Assembly (NCBI RefSeq): GCF_013409505.1
Contig: NZ_JACCBN010000001.1
Span: 1,426,001 to 1,490,000, forward strand
DNA: 64,000 nt
Direction: 5' to 3'
DNA from: Actinomycetospora corticicola
GTDB lineage: Bacteria > Actinomycetota > Actinomycetes > Mycobacteriales > Pseudonocardiaceae
In this document: positions 27,969 through 36,417 of the stretch, piece after piece
Numbering within the stretch: the stretch's first letter is position 1
How the letters are laid out: each line of letters starts with the position of its first letter
Translations under genes and position numbers: made by a program
Notes under the pieces: model-generated
The model's database searches: none
The model's input: only the letters and a program-made list of their open reading frames with translations
What the model was told of the DNA's origin: nothing

Positions 27969-28865
27969 TCAGCTCGTGATGTCCTTGCTCCGGAACCACC
28001 AGACCGCGGTCGCCCCGAAGGCCGTGGCCCACACCAGCGCGGTGAGCACGCCCCGCGCCATCTCCGTGCCGTCGACGTCGGCGGTGAGCAGGTCGGTCCA
28101 CGCGAAGGCGTAGTGCGTGGGCAGCACGTTCCGGATCGACCCGAGCGCGTCCACGGTGTCGAGGATCTGCGACAGGATCGACACGAGCACGGCCCCGCCG
28201 ACCGCTCCGAGAGGTGCGTCCGTCGCCACCGACAGCAGCGTCGCGACGCCCGCCACCCACGTCAGCTGCAGCGCGATGTAGACCACCGCGATCGCGAGCC
28301 GCAGCACCCCGGTGCCGTAGGCGAGCGTCTCGCCGGTCGGGGAGGCCAGCGGGCCGTCGCCGTAGACCAGCGTGCCGAGGGCGAGGGCCACCAGCGGCAA
28401 CACCGCGATCACCGTGATCGACAGCAGGCCGGCGACGATCACCTTCTGGCGCAGCAGCCGCACCCGGGGGACCGGGATGGCGAGCAGGTAGCGCAGCGAC
28501 GACCACGACGCCTCGCTCGCCACCGTGTCCCCGAAGAAGAGGGCCACGACCACCACGAACAGGAAGCTCGCCGAGGAGAACAGCGCGAAGATCACGAAGT
28601 TCGGCCCGGAGGTCTGGGCGAGGTCGGTCAGCGAGAGCCCGGCCTGCCCCGACGAGTCGTTCCCGACCGAGAACGCGATCCACAGGATCACCGGCAGGAG
28701 CGCGAACAGGCCGAGGGTGATCTGGGTCCGCCGCCGTCGGAGCTGTCGGAGCAGCTCGATCCGGACGGGCAGGGTGCTTCCCGACGATGCCTCGCGCGGC
28801 CCCAGCCGCACGTCGCCGTCGGTCAGGGCGCCGGCTCCGCCGCGCTGCGCGTCGCGGTCGGTCAT
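27969..28865 (-). CDS. ABC-2 type transporter permease
   Basis: A 298-residue ABC-2 permease with six predicted membrane segments (TLGLFALLPVILWIAFSV; FVIFALFSSASFLFVVVVALFFGD; and later ones) and the motif FFGDTVASEASWSSLRYLL shared with the permease at 35371-36417 (AGDTVAGESGAGTLRYLL). Its ATG 28865 abuts the stop of the upstream hydrolase-ATPase fusion, so both subunits are made together. The substrate is unknown. Confidence 0.85.
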   Translation of the reverse strand: MTDRDAQRGGAGALTDGDVRLGPREASSGSTLPVRIELLRQLRRRRTQITLGLFALLPVILWIAFSVGNDSSGQAGLSLTDLAQTSGPNFVIFALFSSASFLFVVVVALFFGDTVASEASWSSLRYLLAIPVPRVRLLRQKVIVAGLLSITVIAVLPLVALALGTLVYGDGPLASPTGETLAYGTGVLRLAIAVVYIALQLTWVAGVATLLSVATDAPLGAVGGAVLVSILSQILDTVDALGSIRNVLPTHYAFAWTDLLTADVDGTEMARGVLTALVWATAFGATAVWWFRSKDITS

Positions 28866-31753
28866 CAGCGGCTCTCCTCTCCGATGAGGGCCAGGAACGC
28901 GTCCTCGAGCCGCCGCCGGGGACCGACCCCGACGACGGCGACCCCCGCCCCGACCAGCAGCCGTACGACGGCGGAGCGCTCGGCCTCGGTCGCGGCCTCC
29001 GCGATCACCACGTCCTCGCGGTCGGGGTCGGACTCGGCGGCGTACCCGGCGTCGCGCAGCAGGATCACCGCGCGGTCCCGGTCGCCGGTGACCGCCACGG
29101 CCACCTGTCCGCCCGCCACGAGCTCGGCGACCTCACCGGCCGCCACCACCTCGCCGCGGTGCATCACCACGACGTGGTCGCAGGTCTGCTCCACCTCGGC
29201 CAGCAGGTGGCTGGAGACGAGCACGGTGCGGTGCCGCTCGCCTGCGTACTGCTTGAGCACCTCGCGCATGGCGTGGATCTGGGGCGGGTCGAGGCCGTTG
29301 GTCGGTTCGTCGAGCACGAGCAGGTCGGGCAGCCCGAGCATCGCCTGCGCGATCGCGAGCCGCTGCCGCATGCCCTGCGAGTAGGTGCGCACCACCCGGT
29401 CGACCGCGGTGCCCAGCCCGGCGATCTCCAGCGCCTCGTCCATCCGCGCCTCGCCGATGGGTCGCCCGGTCGCCGCCCAGTACAGCTCCAGGTTCGCGCG
29501 CCCCGACAGGTGCGGCAGGAAGCCCGGGCCCTCGACGAACGAGCCGATCCGCCCCAGGACCGGCGCTCCGGGCGTCACCCGCACGCCGAAGACCCGCAGC
29601 TCACCCGCGCTCGGCCGGAGCAGCCCCATGAGCATGCGCAGCGTCGTCGTCTTGCCGGCCCCGTTCGGTCCGAGCAGCCCGAGCACCTGCCCGCGCTCCA
29701 CCCGGAACGACACCTCGCGCACGGCGGTGAACCCGTTGCGGTACCGCTTCGCGAGGCCGCGGACCACCAGCGGCACGTCGACCAGGTCCGGGTCGACCGC
29801 CAGGTCGCCGCCGGGCTCGAGGTCCCGACGACGGCGCCGCGCGGCCACGACGCGCCCGATCACCACCGCGGCGACCACCCCGAGCAGGAGCACCCCGATG
29901 GCCACCAAGGGCCCGGCCGGCACGCTCGACCCGCCGGTCTGCTCACCCGGGACCTCGGGCACGGACAGGGTCCGGTCGGCCAGCGCGATCCGGTACACGG
30001 CGGGATCGGCGGGCGAGGCGAAGCCCTGGTCGGTGGTGGCGATCGCGACCTCGAGGCGGTGCCCGGCCTGCACGGTCGCCGCGACGGCGGGGAGGGTCAC
30101 CGTCACGGTCTGCGTCCCGGCCGGCGCGAGGGCCAGGCGCATGGGCGCCACGGCGTTGCCGAGCAGCGTCCGGGTGTCCGGGGCGCCGTTCTGACCGGGC
30201 GCGACGTCGTAGACCTTGCCGAAGAGCACGGGTCCCGACGTCGGGGCCGGGGCGCCCGGGGCGGTCGTCCCCGTCGTCGTGACGGCGATCCGGACCTGCG
30301 GGGATCCGGAGACGATCGTGCGGTCGGCCAGCGGTTCCGTGCGGAAGGTCGCCGCCTGTCCAGGGAGATCGGCGGCCAGCCGCCCGAGCAGGGCACCGGC
30401 CCCGCCACCTCCGCCGCCGGAGCCGCCACCACCGGAGCCGCCGCCCGACCCGCCGTCGTCACCCTCGTCGTCACCGGAGCCGCCGGACCCACCCGTGGCC
30501 CCGCCGGCGATCGCCGCGAGACCCGGGATCGACGAGATCGAACCGGGGACCCCGCCCGCGGGCGAGACGACGGACTGCTCGTCTCCCGTGAGCGCGAGCC
30601 CGGTCCGGGGTGCCGTCGCCGGGTAGGCGGGCGCGGTGACGACCCGCTGCGTGGGCGCCGATCGGCTGCGCACGCCGGAGGGAAGGGCGTAGGTGAACTC
30701 CGTGGGCGGCGCTGTACCGGCGCCGTCCGCGAGCAGGTAGTGGTCGAGCCACGCCGAGATCCGGGCGTTCGTGCGCGCATCGGGGGACCCGCCGTCGTGG
30801 CCACCGTTGAACCAGGCCACGGCCACCGTCCCGCCGCCCGAGGCGATGGCCCGCGCGTTGGCGTCGGCCTGGTCGAGGCCGAAGAGCGTGTCGTTCTCGC
30901 CCTGCACCAGCAGCGTCGGGGCCTGGATGCGGTTCGCGACGGACGCGGGGGAGGAGCGCTCGAGGTAGCTCGCGAGCGCCGCCGGCTCCCGCCCGGTGCG
31001 CACCGCCTCGACGTACCCGGCACACACCTCGGGGAGGAAGCGCCCGCAGACGTCGGGGGCCTGCCCGGAGCCGCTGCGCGTGCCGATCCCGAAGAACAGC
31101 GACGCCCACGAGCGCTTGAACACCCCGTCCGGCGCGTCCGCGCCCACGGCGGGGGTGGCGGCCGGCAGGGCTCCGGTGGCTGCGTCGTTCGGGAACAGGG
31201 CCTGGCCGAGGTCGTTCCAGGTGATCATCGGGACGGTGACGTCGATCCGCCGGTCGTAGGCGGCGAGCAGGAGGGCGAGCGCCCCGCCGTAGGAGCCGCC
31301 CATGACCCCGACCCGCGGGTCGCCCGGCCCGTCCTGCGTGACCTCGGGGCGCTGCGCGAGCCAGTCCACGAGCTGGGACGCGTCGGCGACCTCGTAGTCG
31401 GGGTTGTTCAGCGCGATCTGCCCGGTGCTCTGCCCGAACCCGCGGGCCGACCACGCCAGCACCACGTAGCCGCGGGCCGCGAGGCTCCGGGCCTCCCCGG
31501 CGACCGAGCGCTTGTCCGCCCCGAACCCGTGCGCGAGGAGCATCGCGGGCGCCGGGGTCCGTGCGGGCAGGTAGAGGGTGGCGTCGAGGGACTGCGGCTG
31601 GTCGCGGGCGGGACCGTCACGCACCTCGATGCGGAGGTCCTGCGTGCGCACCTCGCCGGTCGGCGTCTGCTCCTGGGCGGGCACCGCCTGGGCCGGCGCC
31701 GCGAGGAGCACCCCCAGCAGCACGACCAGGGGCAGCACGAACAGGCGGATCAC
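28865..31753 (-). CDS. Secreted S15-type hydrolase fused through a TM segment to an ABC ATPase
   Basis: 962 residues, three parts. Residues 1-23 are a signal peptide (AQA/V). Residues 35-345 form an alpha/beta hydrolase of the X-Pro dipeptidyl-peptidase/CocE type with S154 (GGSYGG), D288 (GENDTLF) and H319 (NGGHDGG); 455-600 resemble its C-terminal jelly roll, after a Gly/Ser-rich linker (418-451). A TM helix (613-633) and basic RRRRR stop-transfer lead to an ABC ATPase (660-962) with GPNGAGKT (695-702), SQGMRQR signature and LDEPTNGLDP. The hydrolase would be outside and the ATPase inside. The permease follows directly. A frameshift artefact is unlikely, as the frame is continuous. Confidence 0.85.
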   Translation of the reverse strand: MIRLFVLPLVVLLGVLLAAPAQAVPAQEQTPTGEVRTQDLRIEVRDGPARDQPQSLDATLYLPARTPAPAMLLAHGFGADKRSVAGEARSLAARGYVVLAWSARGFGQSTGQIALNNPDYEVADASQLVDWLAQRPEVTQDGPGDPRVGVMGGSYGGALALLLAAYDRRIDVTVPMITWNDLGQALFPNDAATGALPAATPAVGADAPDGVFKRSWASLFFGIGTRSGSGQAPDVCGRFLPEVCAGYVEAVRTGREPAALASYLERSSPASVANRIQAPTLLVQGENDTLFGLDQADANARAIASGGGTVAVAWFNGGHDGGSPDARTNARISAWLDHYLLADGAGTAPPTEFTYALPSGVRSRSAPTQRVVTAPAYPATAPRTGLALTGDEQSVVSPAGGVPGSISSIPGLAAIAGGATGGSGGSGDDEGDDGGSGGGSGGGGSGGGGGGAGALLGRLAADLPGQAATFRTEPLADRTIVSGSPQVRIAVTTTGTTAPGAPAPTSGPVLFGKVYDVAPGQNGAPDTRTLLGNAVAPMRLALAPAGTQTVTVTLPAVAATVQAGHRLEVAIATTDQGFASPADPAVYRIALADRTLSVPEVPGEQTGGSSVPAGPLVAIGVLLLGVVAAVVIGRVVAARRRRRDLEPGGDLAVDPDLVDVPLVVRGLAKRYRNGFTAVREVSFRVERGQVLGLLGPNGAGKTTTLRMLMGLLRPSAGELRVFGVRVTPGAPVLGRIGSFVEGPGFLPHLSGRANLELYWAATGRPIGEARMDEALEIAGLGTAVDRVVRTYSQGMRQRLAIAQAMLGLPDLLVLDEPTNGLDPPQIHAMREVLKQYAGERHRTVLVSSHLLAEVEQTCDHVVVMHRGEVVAAGEVAELVAGGQVAVAVTGDRDRAVILLRDAGYAAESDPDREDVVIAEAATEAERSAVVRLLVGAGVAVVGVGPRRRLEDAFLALIGEESR

Positions 31754-31870
31754 CTCCGGAACCCTAGGTGGCGGCGGTGATGTGGGCGTGCGGAGCGGGG
31801 TTGGCCACCGGAGAGTGAAGTGAAGGACACCCCACGTGGTCGTCGGGCGAGGGCAATGGAATAGTCCGTC

Positions 31871-31990
31871 GTGGAGGGGAGTATCCCCGGAACCACTGCG
31901 AGCGCCTCGTCAGCACGACAGCCGGAAGATGTCCGGGGCGCACGGCGCGCCGACCCGTGACGGGCCGGTCGTGGGAGAGACCTCCGGTGT
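31871..31990 (+). promoter_or_regulatory. Probable yybP-ykoY (manganese) riboswitch
   Basis: Upstream of a TerC-family gene are, in order: GGGGAGTA (31876-31883), CGTCAGCA (31908-31915) and GAGAGACCT (31975-31983), bounded by GGAGG/CCTCC (31873-31877 and 31981-31985), which can close the P1 stem. These are the conserved pieces of the Mn2+-sensing yybP-ykoY aptamer, which commonly controls TerC/MntP-type genes. The ribosome binding site starts about 24 nt after the P1 strand. Confidence 0.72.
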
Positions 31991-32018
31991 GGTGCCGACC
32001 TTCCCACCGGAGGAATCC

Positions 32019-33047
32019 GTGTTGCTGTCTGCTGTGCCGGGGCCCGTCGCGGCCACCGGGGGTGAGCCCTTCTGGGTGTGGGCCCTGACCATCGCCGGTC
32101 TCGCCGTGATCTTCGCGGTCGACCTGTGGGCGGGCCGTCAGCCCGCCGAGGTGACGATGCGCCAGGCCGGGCGGGGCGTGGCGATCTACGTCGGGCTCGC
32201 CGTCCTCTTCGCGGCCGGGCTCCTGGTGTTCGGCGGGCAGCCGCAGGCGACCGCGTTCATCGCGGGGTACGTCACGGAGTACTCGCTGTCGGTGGACAAC
32301 CTGTTCGTGTTCCTGCTGATCATGACCGCGTTCCAGGTCCCGAAGGCGTTCCAGCACCGGGTGCTGCTGGTCGGGATCCTCATCGCCCTGGTGATGCGCG
32401 GCGGGTTCATCCTCGCCGGCGCCGCGGTGATCGAACGGTTCTCCTGGGTGTTCTACCTCTTCGGCGCCTTCCTGGTGATCACCGCGGTGAAGGTGTGCTT
32501 CGAGGGTTCCGACGACGGCGAGGAGGAGTTCCGGGAGAACGTCCTGCTGCGCGGGCTGCGCCGGGTCGTGCCGGTGACCGAGGACTTCCGCGACGCGAAG
32601 CTGACCGTGCGGGAGGCGGGGCGGCGGATGATCACCCCGATGCTGATGGTGATGATCGCCATCGGGCTGACCGACCTGCTGTTCGCCCTGGACTCCATCC
32701 CGGCGATCTTCGGGCTCACCAAGGACCCCTACATCGTCTTCACCGCCAACGCCTTCGCCCTGCTCGGGCTGCGCCAGCTGTACTTCCTGCTCGGCGGGCT
32801 GCTCTCCCGGCTGGTGTACCTGCAGTACGGGCTCGGGGTGATCCTGGCGTTCATCGGGGTCAAACTGGTCCTCGAAGCCCTGCACACCAACACCGTGCCG
32901 TTCATCCACGCCGGCCGGCCGGTGGACGTGCCGCTGATCGGGATCGAGCTCTCCCTCGCCGTGATCATCGGCGTCCTCGCCGTCACCACCGTCGCCAGCC
33001 TCATCCGCACCCGGGCGAGCAAGGACCGCGATCTCGAATCGGTGTGA
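32019..33047 (+). CDS. TerC/Alx family membrane protein, probable Mn2+ exporter
   Basis: A 342-residue polytopic protein with about nine hydrophobic segments and the family's acidic membrane motifs SVDNLFVF (D93), ALDSIPAIFG and VDLWAGR. TerC-family proteins under Mn2+ riboswitches export manganese or load secreted metalloenzymes (family knowledge). It starts at GTG 32019 after GGAGGA (32009-32014); the frame extends upstream through the riboswitch, but that part is noncoding. It is likely induced by Mn2+. Confidence 0.85.
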   Translation: MLLSAVPGPVAATGGEPFWVWALTIAGLAVIFAVDLWAGRQPAEVTMRQAGRGVAIYVGLAVLFAAGLLVFGGQPQATAFIAGYVTEYSLSVDNLFVFLLIMTAFQVPKAFQHRVLLVGILIALVMRGGFILAGAAVIERFSWVFYLFGAFLVITAVKVCFEGSDDGEEEFRENVLLRGLRRVVPVTEDFRDAKLTVREAGRRMITPMLMVMIAIGLTDLLFALDSIPAIFGLTKDPYIVFTANAFALLGLRQLYFLLGGLLSRLVYLQYGLGVILAFIGVKLVLEALHTNTVPFIHAGRPVDVPLIGIELSLAVIIGVLAVTTVASLIRTRASKDRDLESV

Positions 33048-33125: not shown

Positions 33126-34346
33126 GTGACGGCTGTCCTCGACCGCCTGCGCCCGGGGGGCGACGGCGGGACGCCCCCGCCCATCCGGTCGATCCGGGTC
33201 CGGCGCTGGACCGTCGTCGCGGTGGTGGCGGCGCTCCTCGTGGCGATCCCCGCCGTCGTGGCCGCCTGGCCCGTGTCGCCCGCCGTCCAGGTGTCCCCGA
33301 CGGAGCTGCGCGATCGGGTCGCCGCCTCCGGGAACCTCCCGTGGTCCGGGTACGCCGAGGCATCCGGCGGCCTGAACCTGCCCGACGTCGCACAGTTCTC
33401 CGACGTCACCACGCTGCTGTCCGGGACCTCGCGGCTGCGCGGCTGGTACGCGGCGCCCGACCGGGTGCGGGTCGACCAGCTCTACGCGGGCGGCGAGCGC
33501 AGCCGCTACACCACGGCGACCGGCCAGGTGGTGTGGGACTACGGCGCGCAGCTGCTCACCTACGTCCGGCGGGACCCGCTCGTGCGGCTGCCCCGCCCGG
33601 ACGACCTGCTCCCGCCCCAGCTCGCACGGCGGCTGCTCTCCGGGACCCTGCCCGACGATCCCGTGTCCGGTCTGCCGGCCCGACGCGTCGCCGGGGTGGA
33701 CGCGGCGGGGTTCCGCGTCACGATCGCCGACCCGCGCACCACGGTGGGCGCGCTCGACGTCTGGGCCGACCCGGTCGACGGCCTCCCGGTCGCGGTCGAG
33801 GTGCGCACGAAGAGCGCCGCGGGGGCGCTCGCGGGAGGACCCGTCGTCGGGACCAGCTTCCTCGAGCTCGACCGCGAGGTGCCGGACCCGGCGGTGTTCG
33901 TGGCCCAGCCGACGCCCGGCGTCGGGGTGACCCGCAGCCCCACCTCGGACCTGTTCGGCGTGCTCGGCCGCGGCAGCCCGGACGCCGTGCCGCCCGCGGT
34001 GGACGGCGTCGACCGGGTGACGCCGCAGCGCGGGTTCGCGGCGATCGGGAAGTACGGGACGACGTTGTCGCAGCTGATCGTGGTCCCGCTGCCCGCCGAC
34101 ATCGCCTCCTCGCTGCTCGACAACATCGACGACGCCGGGTCCGCCGGCCGGACCATCACGGTCACCGCCCCGGAGAACGCGACCGGGCGCACCGCCAACG
34201 CGACCGCCGGCGCCCTCGAGTCCTCGCTGCTGCGCCTGGCCGTGCTCCGCGTGGGCAACCGGGCGTGGGCGGTCGGTGGGCTCGTGACCGACGACGTCCT
34301 CGACCGCGCCGTGACCGACATCGCCGCCGACTCTGGAGCACCGTGA
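33126..34346 (+). CDS. LolA/RseB-like exported protein linked to an ABC-2 transporter
   Basis: 406 residues. An N-terminal anchor helix (about 27-47) precedes an extracytoplasmic domain with an unclosed beta-barrel pattern as in LolA/MucB-RseB proteins (LLSGTSRLRGWYAAPDRVRVDQL, TGQVVWDYG, VDAAGFRVTIADPRTTVGALDVWADPVDGLPVAVEV). Such proteins bind lipid or lipoprotein. It starts at GTG 33126. It overlaps the ATPase gene by 4 bp (GTGA), so it is probably the substrate-handling partner of that exporter. Confidence 0.7.
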   Translation: MTAVLDRLRPGGDGGTPPPIRSIRVRRWTVVAVVAALLVAIPAVVAAWPVSPAVQVSPTELRDRVAASGNLPWSGYAEASGGLNLPDVAQFSDVTTLLSGTSRLRGWYAAPDRVRVDQLYAGGERSRYTTATGQVVWDYGAQLLTYVRRDPLVRLPRPDDLLPPQLARRLLSGTLPDDPVSGLPARRVAGVDAAGFRVTIADPRTTVGALDVWADPVDGLPVAVEVRTKSAAGALAGGPVVGTSFLELDREVPDPAVFVAQPTPGVGVTRSPTSDLFGVLGRGSPDAVPPAVDGVDRVTPQRGFAAIGKYGTTLSQLIVVPLPADIASSLLDNIDDAGSAGRTITVTAPENATGRTANATAGALESSLLRLAVLRVGNRAWAVGGLVTDDVLDRAVTDIAADSGAP

Positions 34347-35374
34347 CCAACCTGGGTGAACGCAGCGACGGGGCCCGTCGCTCGACGGGCGTGCGCACCC
34401 CGAGCCAGCCGGTGCCCGTCCAGCGGGCGCGACCGCTCCCGGGGCCCCCGGTCGACACCCCGCTGGTCATCGAGACCCGGGGGCTGACCAAGCGGTACGG
34501 CTCGCGCGCCGCGGTCGACGAGGTCGACCTGCACGTGGCCGAGGGCGACCGCTACGGCTTCCTGGGTCCGAACGGCTCGGGCAAGACGACCATGGTCCGG
34601 ATGCTGCTCGGGCTCGTCTTCGCGACCCGCGGGGAGATCCGGGTCCTGGGCCACGAGGTGCCGCGTGAGGTCCACCGGGTGCTCCCGCGGATCGGCGCGA
34701 TGGTCGAGGGCCCGGCGGCCTACGGGCACCTCTCGGGCCGCGCCAACCTCGACCTGCTGGACGCCTCGGGCCCCGGTCCCCGCGCGGGTCGCCGACGGCG
34801 GGTGGGCGAGGCCATGGAGCGCGTCGGACTCGGCGGGGTCGACCGCCGACCGGTGCGCACCTACTCGCTCGGCATGCGCCAGCGGCTGGGGCTCGCGGGC
34901 GCGCTGCTGTCCAAGCCCGACCTGCTCATCCTCGACGAGCCGACCAACGGGCTCGACCCGCACGGCATCCGGGAGATCCGCGAACTGCTGATCGAGCTGA
35001 ACCACGAGGGGACCACCGTCTTCCTCTCCAGCCACCTGCTGGCCGAGATCGAGGCCCTCTGCACCCAGGTCGGGGTGGTGGACCGCGGACGGCTCGTGCT
35101 CGAGGAACCGCTGGACGCGGTGCGGCGCCACACCGGGCGGGTCGTGGTGACCACACCCGACGTCGAGCGCGCAGCAGCGGCGCTCGGGTCCGCGCTGGTG
35201 GACCGCACGCCGGACGGCGGGCTCGTGGTCAGCCCCGCCGACGACGCGGGAGCGGCGGGCCTCGCCCGCCACCTCGTCGGAGCCGGTGTGCGCCTCGACG
35301 CGCTGGAGCCGGAGACGGTGAGCCTCGAGGACGTCGTCGTGCGCATCACGGGCCCCGGGAGCGACCGCGCATGA
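34343..35374 (+). CDS. ABC transporter ATP-binding protein (ABC-2 exporter)
   Basis: 343 residues. About 40 disordered residues precede the CcmA/NatA-type ATPase: Walker A GPNGSGKT, YSLGMRQRL signature and ILDEPTNGLDPHG. It is paralogous to the ATPase half of the fusion at 28865-31753 (both share HLSGRANL(E/D) and SSHLLAE(V/I)E). It starts at GTG 34343, coupled to the LolA-like gene, and overlaps the permease by 4 bp. Confidence 0.88.
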   Translation: MTNLGERSDGARRSTGVRTPSQPVPVQRARPLPGPPVDTPLVIETRGLTKRYGSRAAVDEVDLHVAEGDRYGFLGPNGSGKTTMVRMLLGLVFATRGEIRVLGHEVPREVHRVLPRIGAMVEGPAAYGHLSGRANLDLLDASGPGPRAGRRRRVGEAMERVGLGGVDRRPVRTYSLGMRQRLGLAGALLSKPDLLILDEPTNGLDPHGIREIRELLIELNHEGTTVFLSSHLLAEIEALCTQVGVVDRGRLVLEEPLDAVRRHTGRVVVTTPDVERAAAALGSALVDRTPDGGLVVSPADDAGAAGLARHLVGAGVRLDALEPETVSLEDVVVRITGPGSDRA

Positions 35375-36417
35375 TGGTGGTCGAGCTGCGCAAGCTGTTC
35401 CGACGGCCGCGCACGTGGGTGACGATCGGGCTGCTCTGCCTGCTGCCGGCGATCGTCGCGGTGTTCCTGGCGTCGACCCGGATCGCCCCGCCGCCGGGGC
35501 AGGGGGCGGCGTTCCTGTCCGCGGTGCTGGAGTCGGGGTCGCTGTACCCCGCGGCCGCGCTGGCCCTGGTGCTGCCGATCTTCCTGCCCGTCGCGGTGGC
35601 CGTGATCGCGGGCGACACGGTGGCCGGGGAGTCCGGCGCCGGGACGCTGCGGTACCTGCTCGTGCGGCCGGTCGGCCGGACGAAGCTGCTGGTGGCCAAG
35701 CTCGTGTCGGTCGTCGCCTTCGTGGTCGCGACGGTCGCCGCCGTGGCGGGCACGTCGTACGTGGTGGGCGTGACGCTGTTCGGCGCCGGCGATCCGGTCG
35801 CGGTGGTGAACGCGATCCCGCAGATCTCGGGCCCGGGCGGGGGAGGCTCGTCGAGTTCCGCCTCCGGGGGCGGCGGTGGCACCGGGGCGACCGCGCCGTC
35901 CGCGGGTGGCTCCGCCAGCGCCGCCGACCCGGCCGGACCGGCCCCGGCCGCGCCCGGAGCCCCGGCCGCGGGGCCCGACACCGGCTCGTCGAGCCAACTC
36001 GATCCCACCGAGGCCCGGGAGCGGGCCGCCGACTCCGTCGCGTCGCTCTCCGGCGACCCGCTCTCGCCCGCCGACCTGGCGCTGCGGCTGCTCGGGGCGA
36101 TGGCCTACATCACGATCTCCATGCTCGGCGTCGGGGCGATCGCGCTGTTCCTCTCCACCGTGACCGCCTCCTCCCTCGGGGCGACCCTGGGGGCGCTCGC
36201 CGCGCTGATCTCCTCGCAGGTGCTCGTGACGCTGGACGCGGCCGCCTCGGTCACCCCGTACCTGCCCACGCGGTACTGGCTGGCCTGGATCGACTTCTTC
36301 CGCGACCCGATCTTCCTGCGCGACATCCGGGCCGGCCTGATCGTGCAGGCCGCCTACGTCGTGATCCTCATGCTCGCGGCCTGGGCGAACTTCACGACCA
36401 AGGACGTCGCGCAGTAG
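35371..36417 (+). CDS. ABC-2 type permease with low-complexity extracellular loop
   Basis: 348 residues with six predicted TM segments. Between TM3 and TM4 (about 150-215) lies a Gly/Ser/Ala/Pro-rich stretch (GPGGGGSSSSASGGGGG onward), unusual for this family and probably extracellular. AGDTVAGESGAGTLRYLL matches the other permease in the window. ATG 35371 overlaps the ATPase stop (ATGA). The unit LolA-like/ATPase/permease is complete. Confidence 0.85.
   Translation: MMVVELRKLFRRPRTWVTIGLLCLLPAIVAVFLASTRIAPPPGQGAAFLSAVLESGSLYPAAALALVLPIFLPVAVAVIAGDTVAGESGAGTLRYLLVRPVGRTKLLVAKLVSVVAFVVATVAAVAGTSYVVGVTLFGAGDPVAVVNAIPQISGPGGGGSSSSASGGGGGTGATAPSAGGSASAADPAGPAPAAPGAPAAGPDTGSSSQLDPTEARERAADSVASLSGDPLSPADLALRLLGAMAYITISMLGVGAIALFLSTVTASSLGATLGALAALISSQVLVTLDAAASVTPYLPTRYWLAWIDFFRDPIFLRDIRAGLIVQAAYVVILMLAAWANFTTKDVAQ

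Follow-up and report, generated by a model that had tools for sequence, protein, structure and literature searches.

Fusion of a predicted outer esterase-type hydrolase to the ATPase of an ABC-2 exporter in Actinomycetospora corticicola and its relatives

The window, by which the whole 64,000-nucleotide stretch of Actinomycetospora corticicola DNA analyzed here is meant, carries on its minus strand a two-gene cassette, in which a gene for a long hydrolase–ABC ATPase fusion is followed by one for an ABC-2 permease. From its N-terminus, the fusion comprises a signal or anchor helix, an alpha/beta hydrolase, a PepX_C beta-sandwich, one transmembrane (TM) helix, and a complete ABC ATPase. The features, with the evidence for each in brackets, are as follows:

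28865..31753, minus: fusion gene, 962 aa (ORF and translation, Pfam, 80/80 listed orthologues single-ORF)
31685..31753, minus: signal peptide or signal anchor, residues 1-23, h-region 1-19 with an AxA motif after it (hydropathy)
30524..31660, minus: alpha/beta hydrolase core, residues about 32-410 (PF02129, invariant residues, AlphaFold2 model with Foldseek matches to PaL/CocE)
30392..30514, minus: Gly/Ser/Asp-rich low-confidence linker in the extracellular part, residues about 414-454 (sequence, pLDDT)
29939..30373, minus: PepX_C jelly-roll-like domain, residues 461-605 (PF08530, AlphaFold2 strands)
29843..29917, minus: TM helix, residues about 613-637, then an Arg-rich cytoplasmic turn (hydropathy, positive-inside count, AlphaFold2 helix)
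28868..29779, minus: ABC ATPase, residues 659-962 (PF00005, invariant motifs, E-loop)
27969..28865, minus: ABC-2 permease, 298 aa, six TM helices (PF12730/PF12679, i.e., ABC2_membrane_4 and _2)
31836..33047, plus: TerC/Alx-family membrane protein, divergent neighbor (PF03741, TIGR03718)

The initial annotation had described the fusion as a single chain of 962 residues, and this description stands. The reading frame is open throughout 28865-31753 on the minus strand, and a domain search returned all three families above their Pfam cut-offs, namely Peptidase_S15 (PF02129; residues 55-291, 75.6 bits vs. 23), PepX_C (PF08530; residues 464-582, 36.7 bits vs. 22.5), and ABC_tran (PF00005; residues 679-819, 100.1 bits vs. 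25). Every domain is present in the AlphaFold2 model (pLDDT 80, pTM 0.62). At the upstream end, a GGAGG Shine-Dalgarno-like sequence directly abuts the GTG start at window position 31753 (GGAGGTGATC), which leaves the translation start uncertain by some codons. At the downstream end, the fusion stop and the permease start read CGCTGATGACC and have base 28865 in common, in agreement with the earlier statement that the two genes touch. The Gly/Ser linker had been placed before the TM helix, but the tract (about 414-454) sits between the hydrolase core and PepX_C, where residues 414-454 are modeled with pLDDT below 50. This region measures 47-61 aa in the inspected Actinomycetospora members against a family median of 10 aa; the long Gly/Ser linker is a lineage-specific trait of close relatives only.

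A protein-level scan of a collection with one genome per species retrieved at least 80 orthologous loci, spanning, among others, Actinomycetospora, Pseudonocardia, Actinokineospora, Actinophytocola, Micromonospora, Salinispora, Dactylosporangium, Catellatospora, Streptomyces, and Sphaerisporangium, and the fusion is a single ORF in 80/80 of the loci among the matches listed. Genome searches, which covered the phylum Actinomycetota, gave a count of such fusions. In the window's family, the fusion is found in 147 of 151 genomes (45 of 47 genera), usually as one copy; it is present in 45 of the 61 genomes representing the order and, in a separate sample of one further family of that order, in 30/101. 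Among 297 genomes sampled across the phylum, 30 yielded a strong hydrolase match, of which 20 carry the fusion and 10 a solo hydrolase only; in these 10, no matching exporter adjoins the hydrolase. Within the family, the fusion lies in long single frames, bar a few short ones, and the phylum, order, and family searches returned no split version among true members despite their wide divergence. A frameshift or misassembly joining two genes, a concern raised with the initial annotation, is ruled out by the genome searches, with all 20 fusion genomes of the phylum sample carrying the fused form, and by the listed orthologues. Given that the fused hydrolases form one clade (support 0.985) and the fused ATPase domains another (support 0.696), the data suggest that the fusion arose once and was then passed on mainly vertically, with losses. 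The fusion is a core gene of the window's family, not an oddity. A plasmid search returned two records only, in one of which an 'alpha/beta fold hydrolase' is followed by an 'ABC transporter permease'; under this hydrolase name, given to the one annotated example seen, single-protein annotation hides the system.

Related hydrolases without an ABC ATPase were also encountered in long open frames of 987 (L111, 4810-7770), 1028 (L109, 3328-6411), and 1472 codons (L110, 2790-7205; one in-frame stop is reported for its genome), and thus other fusions or long extensions may exist.

The hydrolase had been described as complete, with Ser154, Asp288, and His319 as its triad, and the three residues are indeed intact and invariant in 81 sequences among the matches listed. 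A GxSYxG motif is present, as is an HGFG oxyanion-type motif at residues 75-78. In the extracellular part, Cys236 and Cys244 are invariant in 40 diverse members, as expected of an extracytoplasmic disulfide. The best Foldseek match is the lipase PaL (E 6.7e-28, 20% identity), followed by cocaine esterases (CocE) and alpha-amino acid ester hydrolases (AEH), with E values to about 1e-18, and it is the overall fold, including the C-terminal domain, that matches PaL, CocE, and AEH. PaL is ranked first by the sequence profile search as well, whereas X-Pro peptidases (PepX structures) appear behind these three groups, at rank 26 and below. Of the earlier wording 'X-Pro-peptidase-like', the PepX_C domain is retained, but the nearest structures are PaL/CocE, and the X-Pro dipeptidyl peptidase PepX proper is ruled out as the closest kin by its rank. 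The hydrolase therefore appears better read as a CocE/PaL-type esterase or lipase. PaL hydrolyses menthyl propionate and is used for that reaction (PMC9902596). Together with the ranking of folds, this leads us to predict, with modest confidence, that the bond cut is an ester rather than a peptide bond.

The initial annotation had the hydrolase outside and the ATPase inside, an orientation that the topology signals corroborate. Two segments of the fusion are hydrophobic, residues 1-19 (hydropathy 2.74) and 615-633. A hydrophobic N-terminus is found in 81/81 homologues among the matches listed; the AxA motif occurs in only 39/81 of them, and the N-terminal helix may therefore stay as an anchor in many relatives. 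Across the family, Arg and Lys residues flanking the second segment average about five just after it and under one before it, a distribution placing the hydrolase outside and the ATPase inside, and AlphaFold2 models a helix at residues 613-645. The join between ectodomain and TM helix, around 607-614, contains low-confidence stretches. Such a join would be consistent with simple tethering, in which the fusion does no more than hold a secreted esterase at the membrane, in fixed proportion to the exporter, while the two work independently, and PepX_C-type hydrolases do exist alone too. However, given the lack of split versions noted above, and since a single origin and long retention suggest more than convenience, this explanation is regarded as quite improbable.

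The ATPase half has its motifs in order, with Walker A at 695-702, the E-loop Glu741, Walker B and its Glu at 815-816, and the H-loop His849. In the 81 sequences among the matches listed, Walker A, the Walker B Asp-Glu, and the H-loop His are invariant, and the signature-motif residues are invariant or conservatively substituted. The invariant catalytic motifs rule out a pseudo-enzyme in either half, and the invariance of the catalytic residues of both enzymes, together with that of the two extracellular cysteines, indicates that both halves are under selection. In one member (L125, 3167-6103), the fused ATPase gives a split profile match, 571-836 and 921-978, which suggests an insertion near its C-terminal end. 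The best-scoring NCBIfam models for the fused ATPase are the exporter types drrA and lantibiotic-protection ATPase, both below their curated cut-offs; LanF or DrrA proper is accordingly rejected (TIGR03740, 168.0 vs. 309.75 bits; TIGR01188, 183.7 vs. 312.45 bits). In 58 of 59 fused ATPases, the Q-loop position has Glu in place of Gln, a trait in common with the nearest solo ATPases of the same genomes. LanF-type immunity ATPases have an E-loop, with Glu at the Q-loop position.

The permease is a constant partner. It adjoins the fusion in 79 of 80 loci among the matches listed, the contig ending there in the remaining one, and lies beside it in all 20 fusion genomes of the phylum-wide sample and in 20/20 loci fetched for context. 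Sequence hallmarks of an ABC-2 exporter are present in the same operon, namely Walker A/B, signature, H-loop, and a six-TM ABC-2 permease. The hydrolase, ATPase, and permease show correlated pairwise distances (0.84-0.88), a pattern equally expected from vertical inheritance alone. The drrA/lantibiotic-type score, the Q-loop Glu, and the six-TM permease fit a predicted ABC-2 exporter of amphiphiles.

The same features invite the proposal of a detoxification pump that would lift membrane-inserted antimicrobial peptides or lipopeptides out, as LanFEG/CprABC do, for the outer hydrolase to destroy. A precedent comes from NSR and NsrFP, in which a membrane-associated extracellular serine protease and an ABC transporter make up one resistance system (PMC5786555). 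Nevertheless, the scores with drrA and lantibiotic-protection models, although the best obtained, are far under the curated cut-offs, the hydrolase fold is esterase-like, and the cassette is present, usually in single copy, at a fixed locus in nearly every genome of the window's family, where the conserved neighbors examined include neither biosynthetic nor two-component genes. We consider this proposal rather unlikely. A further alternative is power transmission without transport, in which the ATPase cycle would shift the TM helix and change how the outer hydrolase acts or is positioned on an envelope ester, by analogy with FtsEX and cell-wall hydrolases or NosFY and NosD. In its favor, a single TM helix links the ATPase directly and covalently to the ectodomain, and NosF is the best match to the fused ATPase among solved stand-alone bacterial ABC ATPases. 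On the other hand, the permease has the usual six-TM ABC-2 form instead of the FtsX/MacB type, and the low modeling confidence around 607-614 suggests flexibility between ectodomain and TM helix, making this alternative unlikely.

The surroundings of the cassette suggest no pathway. In all 13 genera sampled within the window's family, the TerC gene lies next to the fusion and is divergent from it, while in the other families with recognized neighbors a Cdc48-like ATPase and/or threonine synthase is found beside it. TerC proteins are linked to the metal supply of secreted enzymes; nonetheless, TerC is probably not part of the machine, as synteny alone explains the pairing. Biosynthetic and two-component genes were absent from the conserved neighbors examined, and the conserved position beside TerC, or beside the Cdc48-like ATPase/threonine synthase, leaves the idea of a horizontally acquired or biosynthetic-cluster gene unsupported. 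With such neighbors, the cassette behaves as a two-gene chromosomal core unit, and its core status, single origin, and fixed chromosomal position speak for a broad role in the envelope and not for a specialized export cluster.

Beyond TerC, a second ABC-2 cassette occupies window positions 33126-36417 on the plus strand. Its ATPase is about 48% identical to the fused ATPase, its permease has a roughly 70-residue Gly/Ser/Ala/Pro-rich loop, and its 406-aa protein, with a hydrophobic N-terminal segment, gave no match in Pfam or solved-structure (PDB) searches. The two systems may be paralogous, with another kind of ectodomain here that is encoded by a gene of its own.

Taken together, the cassette is best explained as an exporter of the ABC-2 (type V-like) kind, encoded by two genes, with a tethered outer esterase on each ATPase chain that would process the amphiphile being exported, a reading to which we assign a probability of about one half. 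With two permeases and two fusion chains, the full transporter would have a pair of motors on the inner side and a pair of esterase domains on the outer side. Driven by ATP hydrolysis, an amphiphilic substrate, probably acylated or similar to a lipid, would cross or leave the membrane, and as it emerges, one of its ester (less likely amide) bonds would be cut by the tethered CocE/PaL-type domain. Within this exporter–esterase reading, export and hydrolysis may plausibly be mechanically linked, although a mere tether without functional coupling would yield the same sequences. The permease of NosFY is reportedly proposed to act without net export, and the same is conceivable for the permease here. 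Doubtful, though worth stating, is the bolder version that this is an undescribed class of transporter, core across much of Actinomycetota, in which ATP hydrolysis inside would gate the outer esterase via the single TM helix, with export and ester cleavage of an acylated product or envelope lipid as one coupled cycle. Since each active site can be mutated without the other in a single gene, the fusion would allow a direct test of whether the ATP cycle drives the extracellular enzyme.

The initial annotation knew of no characterized example; to our knowledge, no member of the fusion family has been characterized, and a literature search of open-licence papers found no publication on a hydrolase–ABC ATPase fusion. 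Several known systems resemble it in part. Peptidase-containing transporters with a C39 domain (PCATs) unite a hydrolase with an exporter ATPase in a single chain, which suggests that export is linked to cleavage. The fusion likewise joins the two in one chain, but the PCAT peptidase is a cytoplasmic cysteine protease that precedes the permease, whereas the fusion has an outer serine hydrolase and a permease encoded by a separate gene. A C39 transporter is thus ruled out, the serine hydrolase having a secretion signal and no C39 match. NosDFY combines an ABC-2 ATPase/permease pair with an extracytoplasmic partner, NosD. NosF matches the fused ATPase, and in both cases an extracytoplasmic partner accompanies the ABC-2 pair; however, NosD is a separate protein and no hydrolase, while the ectodomain of the fusion is a hydrolase in the same chain. 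LanFEG/CprABC and DrrAB-type exporters share with the fusion the ATPase subfamily, the six-TM permease type, and the Glu at the Q-loop position, but their ATPases are soluble subunits without an ectodomain, and LanFEG has two permease genes in contrast to the one beside the fusion. PaL of Pseudomonas alcaligenes (8yzn) and CocE resemble the hydrolase half in the alpha/beta hydrolase with C-terminal PepX_C, the GxSYGG nucleophile motif, and the complete triad. They are free enzymes, in contrast to the membrane-tethered domain joined to an ABC ATPase, and identity to PaL is only about 20%. In NSR/NsrFP of Streptococcus agalactiae, a membrane-associated extracellular serine hydrolase likewise accompanies an ABC transporter (PMC5786555), but the chains are separate, the permease is of the BceAB type with ten TM helices, and the protease belongs to another family. 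Known hydrolase–exporter pairings include ones with the hydrolase inside (PCAT) or as a separate protein (NSR/NsrFP); the domain families are known, but the arrangement is new among hydrolase-linked ABC exporters, and an inner ATPase and an outer esterase in one chain, in nearly all genomes of a family, suggest an unrecognized envelope or export function.
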